Positions 15,812-23,355 of a stretch of DNA of 64,000 bases are shown in pieces. The notes under the pieces were generated by a model. The model saw nothing but the letters and a program-made list of their open reading frames with translations, was not told the DNA's origin and did not search any database. Source of the stretch: Colwellia sp. MB02u-6 (GTDB lineage: Bacteria > Pseudomonadota > Gammaproteobacteria > Enterobacterales > Alteromonadaceae); the NCBI RefSeq assembly GCF_014077095.1, contig NZ_JACGVG010000029.1:127625-191624 (forward strand). Direction: 5' to 3'. Both the position numbers and the translations under genes were made by a program. Numbering within the stretch: position 1 is the first letter of the stretch; every line of letters begins with the position of its first letter.

Positions 15812-15979
15812 ATGATTCAACCATATTACAAGCGCAGGTATTTCGGTTGGGGTTTGCCTTATCAGCGGCTCTATGGTTGTTTTAATCGAAAGTTTGGCTC
15901 ACTTGAGCATAGCGATAACATACCCCCTTTGGATGTTAACCAGCCTAATGAAAATGCTGTAGCATTTTATGGACAGTAA
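15812..15979 (+). CDS. Small ORF heading the N-ATPase operon
   Basis: This 55-codon frame starts at ATG 15812 after a good AGGAG ribosome-binding site and overlaps the start of atpD by 11 nt, an arrangement that favours translational coupling. The peptide is rich in aromatic and basic residues at its N-terminus ([10 protein letters not shown]) and polar later. I do not recognise it, and N-ATPase operons do not usually list such a gene. It may be a real small protein, or a leader whose translation sets the level of AtpD. The upstream in-frame ATG at 15785 lacks a ribosome-binding site. Confidence 0.5.
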
Positions 15980-17561
15980 AAGTAAAACCTCACAGAGTGC
16001 TGATATAGGCGTATCTGAGCAAAAGTCAGAGAAAAAAAATGACCAAAACGCTGACCAGAGCCATGCTCAAAACTATGGCCCAAAAAAGCCAGCCACAGCG
16101 ACTAAAAATATGGGTCGTGTGATAGCTGTGCGCGGCAGTGTGGTAGATATAGCATTTTCGGATAAACTTCCCCCCATACGTTCCTTGTTGCATGCGGGCG
16201 AGAGTAATCAAATTTCAATCGAAGTTTTTTCACAACTCGATATCCGTCGTGTGCGGGGTATTGCCTTGACACCTACCCAAGGTTTAGCTCGTGGTATGTT
16301 AGTACAAGACACGGGGGCGCCGTTACAGGCCTTAGTAGGTAAAGGTATTTTGTCTCGTATGTTTGATGTTTTTGGTAACGTGATTGATCGCGAAGCCCCA
16401 CCGAACGACGTGCAGTGGCGTTCAGTTCACAATGTGCCTCCAAGCTTAGACAAACGCGCGACTAAAAGCGAAGTGTTTGAGACCGGTATTAAGGTAATTG
16501 ATGTCTTAATGCCCCTTGAGCGCGGTGGTAAAGCTGGCTTGTTTGGTGGTGCGGGTGTTGGCAAAACGGTATTGCTGACAGAAATGATTCACAACATGGT
16601 TGGACAACATGCGGGGGTCAGTATTTTTTGTGGTATTGGTGAGCGCTGTAGAGAAGGTGAAGAACTCTACCGAGAGATGAAAGCGGCCGGCGTTTTAGAC
16701 AACATGGTGATGGTGTTTGGCCAGATGAATGAGCCACCAGGAGCGCGTTTTCGGGTGGGTCATGCGGCGTTAACCATGGCGGAATACTTTCGTGATGATG
16801 AACACCGTGATGTTCTGTTACTAATTGATAATATATTTCGCTTTATTCAGGCGGGTATGGAAGTGTCTGGTTTGATGGGGCATATGCCAGCTCGGCTTGG
16901 TTATCAGCCGACCATGGGTACCGAGTTGTCACAACTAGAAGAGCGTATTGCCAATACTGGTAGTGGAGCGATTACCTCAATTCAAGCGGTATACGTCCCC
17001 GCAGATGACTTTACTGATCCTGCTGCAGTACACACATTTTCGCATTTATCTGCCTCAATTGTGTTATCGCGTAAACGTGCTAGTGAAGGGCTATATCCGG
17101 CAATCGATCCGTTACAATCCAATTCAAAAATGGCTACCCCTGGCATTATTGGTCAGCGACACTATGATTTAGCACAAAAAATACGTAGTACTTTAGCACA
17201 ATACGCTGATCTTAAAGATATTATTGCCATGCTTGGCATGGAACAGCTGTCACCCGAGGATCATAACGTGGTGGGGCGTGCTCGTCGTCTGGAACGTTTT
17301 CTTACTCAGCCTTTTTTTACTACAGAGCAGTTCACTAGTATGTCGGGTAAGTTAGTGAGTTTGAGTGATGCTTTAGATGGTTGCGAACGCATACTCCAAG
17401 ACGAGTTTAAAGATACACCAGAAAATGCGCTGTATATGATTGGTGCTATTAGGGAGGCTAGTGAAAAAGTTAAACCACTAGCACCCGATGATCAAACTGC
17501 AGAGAATAATGAAAATATGGCCAAGGAGGGGGTGGATGCAAGCAGCACAGATGAAGCTTAA
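15969..17561 (+). CDS. atpD: N-type ATPase subunit beta
   Basis: The catalytic subunit of the F1 part, 530 residues. The Walker A motif is GGAGVGKT at 193-200, followed by [14 protein letters not shown] and [10 protein letters not shown] (Walker B). The first 47 residues (Ser-, Lys-, Asn-, Gln-rich) are an extension not found in housekeeping beta subunits, which begin at the equivalent of M48[12 protein letters not shown]. There is no ribosome-binding site at M48, so the longer form is likely made. The sequence departs from housekeeping F-type beta, for example DNIFRFIQ instead of DNIFRFTQ, as in N-ATPases. It begins the gene order D-C-Q-R-B-E-F-A-G that defines this family. Confidence 0.95.
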
Positions 17562-17943
17562 GGTTTTATTACCCTATAAGGTGTTTATTGAGCAAGCCCA
17601 AGTCATGCGTATTATTGCGGTGACAAACGATGGTGCATTTGGCATTTTACCGCACCGACTTGACTGTGTTATCGCACTATCTGCAGGAATATTAGTCTTT
17701 GAAACCCAAGGCGCTGATGAAGTCTATATTGCCGTTGACGAAGGTATATTGGTTAAAACAGGTTTTGATGTGCTGATTTCAGTGCGTAATGCTATTTCTG
17801 GCATAGCACTGACTAAGTTACGTGAGGCCATAGAGCAAGAATTTATAAAGCTTGACGAACAAGAGCAAAAGTTGCGCTCGGTACTGGTAAAAATTGAAAG
17901 TGGTTTTATACGTCGCCTAGTGACCTTTAAGCAAGAGCGGTAA
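17536..17943 (+). CDS. atpC: N-type ATPase subunit epsilon
   Basis: The 135-residue product has an N-terminal beta-sandwich recognisable from [16 protein letters not shown], the equivalent of GEMGILPGHAP in standard epsilon, and a short helical C-terminus. Epsilon links the gamma stalk to the c-ring. I chose ATG 17536 because AAGGAGGGGG lies just before it; this start overlaps atpD by 26 nt. Upstream in-frame codons lie inside atpD and lack family similarity. In N-ATPase operons atpC follows atpD directly, as here, whereas in housekeeping atp operons it is the last gene. Confidence 0.9.
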
Positions 17944-17948
17944 TTGTG

Positions 17949-18362
17949 ATGCCTGATAAACCCAAATCCATACCCAAACCTGGGGCTAGGTTAAATGCAG
18001 CGCAATTGGCTGAGGTTAAGTTAGCCAATACTAAATTAACCCAAGCTAAGCAGCGTGACACTAAGTTTAGTCAACAGGTTGGGGATATGGCCGCGCGAAA
18101 ACTTAAAGCGCAGCGACATGTTAATCAAACCGTATGGTCTGGCCTAGGTATGATGGGGCTAGTGGGCTGGTCGGTGGCGATACCAACAGTACTTAGCGCT
18201 GCATTAGGCATTTGGCTAGATGAGCATTATCCAAGCGAAAACTCTTGGACATTAACCTTACTCATTATCGGTTTATGCCTTGGCTGTTTTACTGCTTGGC
18301 GCTGGGTCGATAAGGAATATAAAGAAATTCACCGAGACGAGGACGAAAATAATGATGATTGA
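17949..18362 (+). CDS. atpQ: N-ATPase membrane protein AtpQ (AtpI-like)
   Basis: A 137-residue protein with a long, charged, Ala/Lys/Gln-rich N-terminus (about 1-60) and two membrane helices (about 61-83 and 93-115). A short acidic tail follows (HRDEDENND). AtpQ belongs to the AtpI-like group found only in N-ATPase operons, where it is thought to help c-ring assembly or act in Mg2+ supply. A GTG codon directly before the ATG is an alternative start. The charged N-terminal extension is longer than usual. It overlaps atpR by 11 nt. Confidence 0.85.
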   Translation: MPDKPKSIPKPGARLNAAQLAEVKLANTKLTQAKQRDTKFSQQVGDMAARKLKAQRHVNQTVWSGLGMMGLVGWSVAIPTVLSAALGIWLDEHYPSENSWTLTLLIIGLCLGCFTAWRWVDKEYKEIHRDEDENNDD

Positions 18363-22313: not shown

Positions 22314-22351
22314 AGTAATATTGCTTAACACAGTTTTAATTAATGAGGCTT

Positions 22352-22386
22352 TATCAGTGAATAACTATCTATCAGTGAATAACTAT
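22352..22386. repeat. 17-nt tandem duplication between atpA and atpG
   Basis: TATCAGTGAATAACTAT occurs at 22352-22368 and again at 22370-22386, one base apart, in the 127-bp spacer before atpG, the only long spacer within the operon. It could be a replication slip or a regulatory site. Confidence 0.6.
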
Positions 22387-22440
22387 AAAGGATCAACGAT
22401 GCAGAGCGAAGGATAAGTGATTATTTATGAGCAATAAAAC

Positions 22441-23355
22441 ATGACTGACAGTGTTGCTAGTCTACGGCGAAAAATCACCAGTACAGAAGAACTCAAGTCC
22501 GTGGTAAGCACCATGAAGGCTATGGCATCTTCAAGTATTAGCCAATATGAGCATGCTGTGTACTCACTTGATGATTATTATCGTACCGTTCAATTTGGGC
22601 TGATAGCTTGTTTTCAACGACACCACTCCCCTAATGTTATAAAAATCAGCAATCAGCAAGATAGACTTGGTGTGGGCGTGATCGTGTTTGGTTCAGATCA
22701 GGGGCTAGTGGGTCAATTTAATGAAGTGATGGCAGAATTTGTTACTCGCACTTTGGCAACAATATCAGCGCATAAAACAGGGCATAAAATTGTTTGGGCA
22801 GTAGGCGAGCGTATAAAGTCGCGTTTAGCTGATACGCATTGGGCTGAAAAAAAAGTCACCCTTAAAGACGACTTTATACTACCCAATTCAATTAATGCTA
22901 TAACGGCACTGGTAGGTGACATATTGACTGACATTGAAGCGCAGCGTGAATTAGGCACAATAGATCAAGTTTATCTCTTTCATCATCGTCCTCAAGTCGA
23001 CTCTATTTATACGCCAGTCAGTCAACAGTTATTACCCTTGAGTGAAAGCTTACAAAAAAATTTCACTGATCTTAAGTGGCCGACGAATAATCTACCTGAA
23101 GTGCTACCTGAACGAGATAAAACCCTAAGAGCATTGGTACGTGAATACCTTTTTGTTAGCTTGTTCAGAGCGTGCGCAGAGTCATTGGCAAGCGAAAATG
23201 CTAGTCGTCTTGCGGCGATGCAACGAGCAGAAAAAAATATTGAGGAACAACAGAATGATTTGAACCTAAGCTTTCATCGCCTACGCCAAAGCGATATAGA
23301 TGAAGAGTTATTTGATGTGATCTCTGGCTTTGAAGCCTTGAGTGATAGTGATTAA
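22441..23355 (+). CDS. atpG: N-type ATPase subunit gamma
   Basis: The 304-residue central stalk subunit. The N-terminal helix (SLRRKITSTEELKSVVSTMK) and C-terminal helix (ASENASRLAAMQRAEKNIEE) form the antiparallel coiled coil that turns inside alpha3-beta3; LVGQFNE-like residues in VFGSDQGLVGQFNEVM mark the middle domain. It is the last gene of the order, as in other N-ATPases, and is separated from atpA by 127 bp with a duplicated 17-mer. Confidence 0.93.
   Translation: MTDSVASLRRKITSTEELKSVVSTMKAMASSSISQYEHAVYSLDDYYRTVQFGLIACFQRHHSPNVIKISNQQDRLGVGVIVFGSDQGLVGQFNEVMAEFVTRTLATISAHKTGHKIVWAVGERIKSRLADTHWAEKKVTLKDDFILPNSINAITALVGDILTDIEAQRELGTIDQVYLFHHRPQVDSIYTPVSQQLLPLSESLQKNFTDLKWPTNNLPEVLPERDKTLRALVREYLFVSLFRACAESLASENASRLAAMQRAEKNIEEQQNDLNLSFHRLRQSDIDEELFDVISGFEALSDSD

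Follow-up and report, generated by a model that had tools for sequence, protein, structure and literature searches.

In Colwellia sp. MB02u-6, a 64,000-nucleotide stretch of contig NZ_JACGVG010000029.1 (hereafter the window) carries nine intact open reading frames (ORFs) on the + strand at 15969-23355, in the order atpD-C-Q-R-B-E-F-A-G, encoding the beta and epsilon subunits, AtpQ, AtpR, and subunits a, c, b, alpha, and gamma, respectively (Table 1). All nine products passed curated NCBIfam cut-offs in a profile search; seven passed models for the "alternate F1F0 ATPase," while AtpQ passed TIGR02230 and AtpR passed TIGR03165. The gene order is that of N-ATPases, and neither the ORF list nor the profile search of 15969-23355 revealed a separate delta ORF within the operon. 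A first-pass annotation of this DNA had proposed the same order, the lack of a delta gene, and the presence of AtpQ and AtpR, and the ORFs and profile matches bear this out; it began the operon at 15812, where a small upstream ORF lies, while atpD itself starts at 15969. For atpC, the start at 17536 is favoured over the ORF start at 17488, and a purine-rich site precedes it. In the 554-residue atpA ORF that starts at 20649, the TIGR03324 match extends to residue 514. The operon is an ordinary N-ATPase, an already known enzyme type, in a marine Colwellia, and we regard it as very probable that it is complete, laterally mobile, and of the sodium type.

Table 1. Features of the N-ATPase locus (window coordinates; profile scores in bits, cut-offs in parentheses; aa, amino acids)
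Feature	Product or description	Coordinates	Strand	Profile match or remark
small ORF	55 aa, upstream of atpD	15812..15979	+	11-nt overlap with atpD; purine-rich site before its ATG
atpD	N-type beta, 530 aa	15969..17561	+	TIGR03305 875.9 (752), match 49-497
AtpD N-terminal extension	47 residues, Lys/Ser/Gln-rich	15969..16109	+	
atpC	epsilon, 135 aa	17536..17943	+	TIGR03166 146.3 (100.1), scored on longer ORF
atpQ	ATPase_gene1 family membrane protein	17946..18362	+	TIGR02230 136.1 (46.7); PF09527 62 (26.6)
atpR	N-ATPase AtpR membrane protein	18352..18720	+	PF12966 85.7 (26); TIGR03165 77.7 (55.5); scored on longer ORF 18280-18720
atpB	subunit a	18717..19403	+	TIGR03306 360.2 (302.1)
atpE	subunit c; E30, E63, S64, T65, Y68	19442..19726	+	TIGR03322 161.4 (130.85)
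atpF	subunit b, 316 aa	19730..20680	+	TIGR03321 273.5 (224.7)
atpA	N-type alpha, Ser/Asn/Pro tail	20664..22313	+	TIGR03324 874.5 (750.5)
atpG	gamma	22441..23355	+	TIGR03323 391.8 (282.35)

Membership in the N-ATPase clade was assigned by tree for beta and by TIGR03324 score alone for alpha. A quick-method beta tree of 55 rows (40 of the 80 N-ATPase loci compared here, the window, four relatives, and 10 of 20 housekeeping betas) groups the window with locus L009 of Colwellia sp. MB3u-45 (Shimodaira-Hasegawa-like approximate likelihood ratio test, SH-aLRT, 100), its closest named relative, in which subunit a is 96% identical. Both sit inside the N-ATPase rows (SH-aLRT 99), in a marine gammaproteobacterial branch; by path, the window's nearest neighbors are Amphritea, Thalassobium, Rheinheimera, and Marinomonas, with Shewanella also near, and it is far from the ten housekeeping betas, its own housekeeping copy included. 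The second, housekeeping atp operon suspected earlier is present on another contig (G000:C36:390800-396500), with genes for b, delta, alpha, gamma, beta, and epsilon. Profile scores, beta tree, and this separate operon together support an N-ATPase beside a housekeeping rotary ATPase. N-ATPases have been described as lacking delta or having it fused to b, with a longer b and a history of lateral transfer (PMC4154653, PMC11738941, PMC5706428; these and the other published sources are cited in excerpt). The window shares with them (Dibrova, Galperin and Mulkidjanian, 2010; models TIGR03305, 03306, 03166, 03321-03324) the gene order, the lack of delta, the long b, AtpQ and AtpR, the place beside a housekeeping enzyme, the predicted Na+ ligands, and the patchy spread. 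It differs in the AtpD start, which exceeds the most frequent length by about 38 residues, the rest being within the range seen here.

The sodium assignment comes from subunit c, in which translation confirms E30 and the motif E63-S-T-x-x-Y68 reported by the first-pass annotation. In the c11 ring of the Fusobacterium nucleatum Na+ F-ATPase, the excerpted text of PMC3692424 places the Na+ site at Glu32, the carbonyl of Val63, Glu65, Ser66, a water near Thr67, and Tyr70, and gives Gln at position 32 for the Ilyobacter subunit. E30 and E63 are 33 residues apart, as are Glu32 and Glu65 of Fusobacterium, and therefore E30 occupies the Gln32 position; Pro26, to which the earlier annotation had given that place, is four residues off. 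Glu32, Glu65, Ser66, Thr67, and Tyr70 correspond to E30, E63, S64, T65, and Y68 here, and the predicted set of Na+ side-chain ligands is complete. The Fusobacterium enzyme is an F1Fo-ATP synthase, not an N-ATPase, and the likeness is limited to the ion site. Within the compared loci, the motif P-E-I-E-S-T-Y occurs in 74 of 83 aligned c sequences (a set in which the window itself is present as L090 and L009 is present twice). The enzyme is most likely an ATP-driven Na+ exporter.

Several points weigh against this assignment. Na+ coupling is likely, as judged from the ligands, and the direction, pump or synthase, is not readable from sequence. The c17 ring of the Burkholderia pseudomallei N-ATPase, which shares the operon layout and the second carboxylate (Glu30) with the window, has Thr-Met in place of Ser-Thr and was reported to bind mainly H+ in NCD-4 labelling (PMC5376962, in excerpt), and of 1807 N-type enzymes in a database, 914 are predicted to be Na+-specific and 893 H+-specific (PMC11738941, in excerpt). 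The name of the family thus does not settle the ion, and both observations would fit a proton-coupled enzyme serving pH homeostasis, as proposed for B. pseudomallei. However, the key Glu is followed by Thr62-Met63 in Burkholderia and by Ser64-Thr65 in the window, the latter being the pair of the Na+-loaded Fusobacterium structure, and we consider proton coupling unlikely here. Two divergent N-like operons, L143 (genome G052) and L144 (G082), with betas 48-50% identical, have Met at the place of the second carboxylate and Ser-Leu after the key Glu in their subunits c (L093 and L094), and these are for that reason probably of the H+ type.

AtpF had been described as a 316-residue protein with a delta-like end, and alignments to housekeeping deltas and matches to delta chains in the PDB support this. 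It consists of a b helix (residues ~1-160), a domain like the C-terminal domain of delta (~183-253), and a Ser-rich tail (~254-316). Residues 183-253 align with residues 109-175 of housekeeping delta (hhalign, P 96.3, E 1.8e-9; deltas from 16 of 20 fetched housekeeping loci), and most PDB delta chains match AtpF from about chain residue 82-178 onward. Of 75 AtpF rows, 59 were aligned. No match to the N-terminal half of delta was found in AtpF by hhalign, nor any Pfam match to OSCP at E up to 1. The AlphaFold model (mean predicted local distance difference test score, pLDDT, 82.6) shows one long and two shorter helices, then a small domain of strands and helices, and ends in a tail of low confidence, with block means of 44-50 for residues 271-316. 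A whole delta at the end of AtpF was considered and rejected, since only the C-terminal part of delta aligns and the model has one small domain after the helices. No Foldseek match reached E 0.001; V-ATPase chains came closest (6xbw_I, 1.1e-3), and mycobacterial b-delta, delta, or OSCP chains also appeared, many of them poorly superposed. We take V-ATPase chains such as 6xbw_I to be peripheral-stalk subunits such as E. A resemblance of the longer N-ATPase b to subunit E has been described (PMC4154653, PMC11738941, PMC5706428). The mycobacterial b-delta fusion (PDB 7jg5, 9vkp) likewise has b-like and delta-like parts in a single chain, but is 445-448 residues long and stands beside a separate b, whereas here there is one chain of 316 residues; unlike in a fusion with a whole delta, the two delta domains do not occur together in it. 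As in N-ATPases, there is no delta gene and b has a long C-terminal part: AtpF combines subunit b with the C-terminal half of delta, as has been described before for this family.

The N-terminal extension of AtpD does set the window apart. An alignment of AtpD covered 35 rows. The 47 residues reported to precede the core are present, and the extension is as odd as first suggested: among the 72 of 80 loci counted, an ATG, GTG, or TTG codon lies within 20 residues of the core in 71, and an ATG exactly 9 residues before it in 43. L009 is the only locus without such a codon, its nearest being 37 residues away. When ATG alone is counted, 7 of 72 loci lack one within 20 residues, including L016 (a Thalassobium bin; nearest at 57), where the extension may be as long as the window's. 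The start could have been mis-called, with translation beginning at the ATG at 16110 (M48), which stands at the start of the core, while no purine-rich site is evident before 15969. This is very unlikely, however: L009 has ACG in place of M48 and its nearest start codon well upstream, the two extensions differ by an in-frame indel of 12 nt and have a ratio of nonsynonymous to synonymous substitution rates (dN/dS) of 0.53, and in most other N-type betas the start lies about 9 residues ahead of the core. We regard the extension as probably genuine and rare, and the long start would be a Colwellia-lineage version of a leader usually 9 residues long. It counts against firmer statements on this subunit that its AlphaFold model failed (mean pLDDT 40.9) and was not used, so that disorder of the AtpD ends is judged from composition only.

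The small ORF upstream of atpD is also in frame in L009, with 80% identity. A tblastn search of 118 loci (E 1e-5) recovered it in L009 and the window itself (L004) only, and thus no relative beyond Colwellia, and dN/dS against L009 is 1.76 (10.5 nonsynonymous and 1.5 synonymous changes), a value that does not point to selection on the protein. It was rejected as an operon gene on both grounds; it is probably not a functional protein, and is perhaps a leader for translational coupling.

Low-complexity C-terminal tails are present on AtpF and AtpA, as the first-pass annotation had noted, and a similar one, unlisted there, ends AtpD. The annotation considered such ends odd, and suggested that they tether the enzyme to a partner or prevent mixing with housekeeping subunits; C-terminal tails are in fact common in N-ATPases, and a special role of this kind is not supported. 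Tails were counted in 76 beta, 75 b, and 69 alpha subunits of the 80 loci, excluding contig-edge ORFs and identity-filter failures (the alpha count includes the fused protein of L079, which was left out of the length-correlation and composition analyses). At least 17 residues follow the common anchor in 73/76 beta, 71/75 b, and 60/69 alpha subunits. The window's tails measure 39 (beta), 66 (b), and 44 (alpha) residues, and tails as long or longer occur in 23, 11, and 17 loci, respectively. Lengths range from 10 to 222 residues across many phyla, the fused alpha aside; the longest belongs to the b of an Opitutia bin, and several Verrucomicrobia have long tails on all three subunits. The housekeeping alpha and beta of the window's genome and of 19 of 50 others served as a control (beta was not measurable in L136). 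Beyond matching anchors, housekeeping beta extends by at most 16 residues and alpha by at most 20, and the N-type tail is the longer one in 19/19 measurable beta pairs and 19/20 alpha pairs, although for alpha the difference is at times small (16 or 17 vs. 11). In L143, long tails are absent and no AtpR ORF separates atpQ from atpB.

That alpha and beta tails are longer than those of the housekeeping enzyme in the same genomes could mean that they are functional, as disordered ends that either prevent co-assembly with housekeeping subunits or anchor the enzyme to a partner. Charged residues make up a steady share of about 0.33 (sd 0.08) of the tails despite drift in composition, and beta, alpha, and b tail lengths are weakly correlated within operons (Spearman rho 0.28-0.36, n = 65-70). 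These correlations are uncorrected for kinship and too weak for us to claim co-variation. Against function stand the wide spread in length, to more than 200 residues, and tail dN/dS values versus L009 of 0.68 (beta), 0.66 (b), and 0.25 (alpha), which are rough, coming from short stretches, but lie far above the 0.03, 0.15, and 0.12 of the respective cores. Composition tracks base content as well: the share of A, P, G, and R in the tails follows the guanine-plus-cytosine (GC) content of the locus (rho 0.76, n = 72), and the Ser/Asn-rich tails are for this reason in line with the window's 38% GC. Tails also persist in L062 (G131), a metagenome bin in which only a FliI-type ATPase was found besides and no housekeeping F-type alpha or beta, and in L052 (G126), a 1.5 Mb bin in which no F-type alpha or beta was found; the completeness of both bins is not established, so they argue only weakly against separation from housekeeping subunits as the reason for the tails. 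The genome of L056 (G148) has F-type alpha and beta, and therefore falls outside this argument against insulation. Overall, functional tails of either kind seem rather unlikely, and the tails are most likely weakly constrained flexible extensions that remain polar and charged while their residues follow genome GC.

The operon occurs in 2 of 17 Colwellia genomes, and the TIGR03321 cut-off for AtpF is passed in 4 of 98 related genomes, the window's own included. No match to the N-type b family was found in 15 of the 17 genus genomes at E 1e-25 (one genome being 66% complete). In another Colwellia genome, G008, three genes upstream of the operon are retained, with 76-90% protein identity, followed by a broken piece of atpD (L139:8633-9504) at the same site as the window's operon; the rest of the operon is lost. 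A clean empty site was not found, that of G008 holding the broken atpD and then other sequence beyond the three upstream genes. The patchy presence together with this remnant marks the operon as an accessory one, with at least one loss in Colwellia. Read more strongly, the same absences and the same remnant might describe an operon that no longer functions and is decaying toward loss from the genus, but the nine frames are open in the window and core dN/dS values of 0.03-0.15 for alpha, beta, and b denote strong purifying selection, which makes decay hardly credible. Directly downstream of atpG lies a PAS-domain histidine kinase gene (23716-26157), and L009 also has one. This kinase is found in 4 of the 17 genus genomes, the window's own included (E 1e-100), two of which lack the operon and have it at 53-58% identity; it may form part of a mobile unit with the operon. 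In several marine relatives, a Crp-like regulator takes the place of the kinase near the operon.

Neighboring genes in other N-ATPase loci are given here as raw counts, with families typed by Pfam on one representative per cluster and with more than 2 kb of upstream sequence available for 60 of the 80 loci. Phosphoketolase ORFs stand beside the operon in 14 loci (L013, L023, L024, L026, L029, L039, L041, L043, L052, L056, L057, L060, L081, and L082), upstream and on the same strand in 13 of them. Other neighbors are a Crp-like regulator (10 loci), polyphosphate kinase 2 (PPK2; 6), DUF2254 (5), and Ribosomal_S30AE (HPF; 6 by clustering, plus L032 by Pfam). Ribosomal_S30AE ORFs lie between atpA and atpG at L032:9496-9846, L036:9389-9757, L039:8540-8914, and L082:10691-11056, and the same cluster is near the operon in L056, L070, and L075. 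Also between atpA and atpG is a baeRF family 3 (release-factor-like) ORF at L062:9655-10815 and L082:9501-10661, while genes for a P-type cation ATPase and MgtC lie between atpF and atpA at L042:7855-11004. In a Methylocystaceae bin (L079:7779-10373), an N-type AtpA runs in frame into an HlyD/CusB-like membrane-fusion domain (865 residues), either a true fusion or an assembly error. None of the phosphoketolase, PPK2, HPF, Crp-like, and DUF2254 families is among the ten ORFs near the window's operon. Literature linking phosphoketolase with the N-ATPase or "alternate F1F0 ATPase" was not found, a result that says little on subscription papers.

The cellular role of N-ATPases is described as largely unexplored in the excerpted text of PMC5376962. 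We propose that the enzyme would hydrolyse ATP to drive Na+ out of the cell whenever ion gradients can no longer be kept up by the housekeeping ATP synthase, that AtpQ and AtpR would aid assembly or cation supply, and that AtpF, by analogy with subunit E of A/V-ATPases, would join the peripheral stalk directly to the head. More speculatively, and with rather low probability, the flexible charged tails of alpha, beta, and b, which would be clade-wide in classic N-ATPases and near-absent from same-genome housekeeping alpha and beta and from L143, could serve something that the housekeeping enzyme does not need, e.g., crowding or spacing in regulated assembly, with the N-ATPase being part of an energy-stress module that includes phosphoketolase, polyphosphate kinase 2, and ribosome-hibernation genes. 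The apparent oddities of the Colwellia enzyme are mostly the normal build of an N-ATPase, and the reading of its ion site is corrected here. Two leads follow for the family as a whole: the reason for the variable tails of N-ATPases, which have no counterpart on alpha and beta of the housekeeping enzyme in the same cell, and the frequent position of N-ATPase operons beside phosphoketolase and dormancy genes. The second of these would point to the cellular role of the enzyme.

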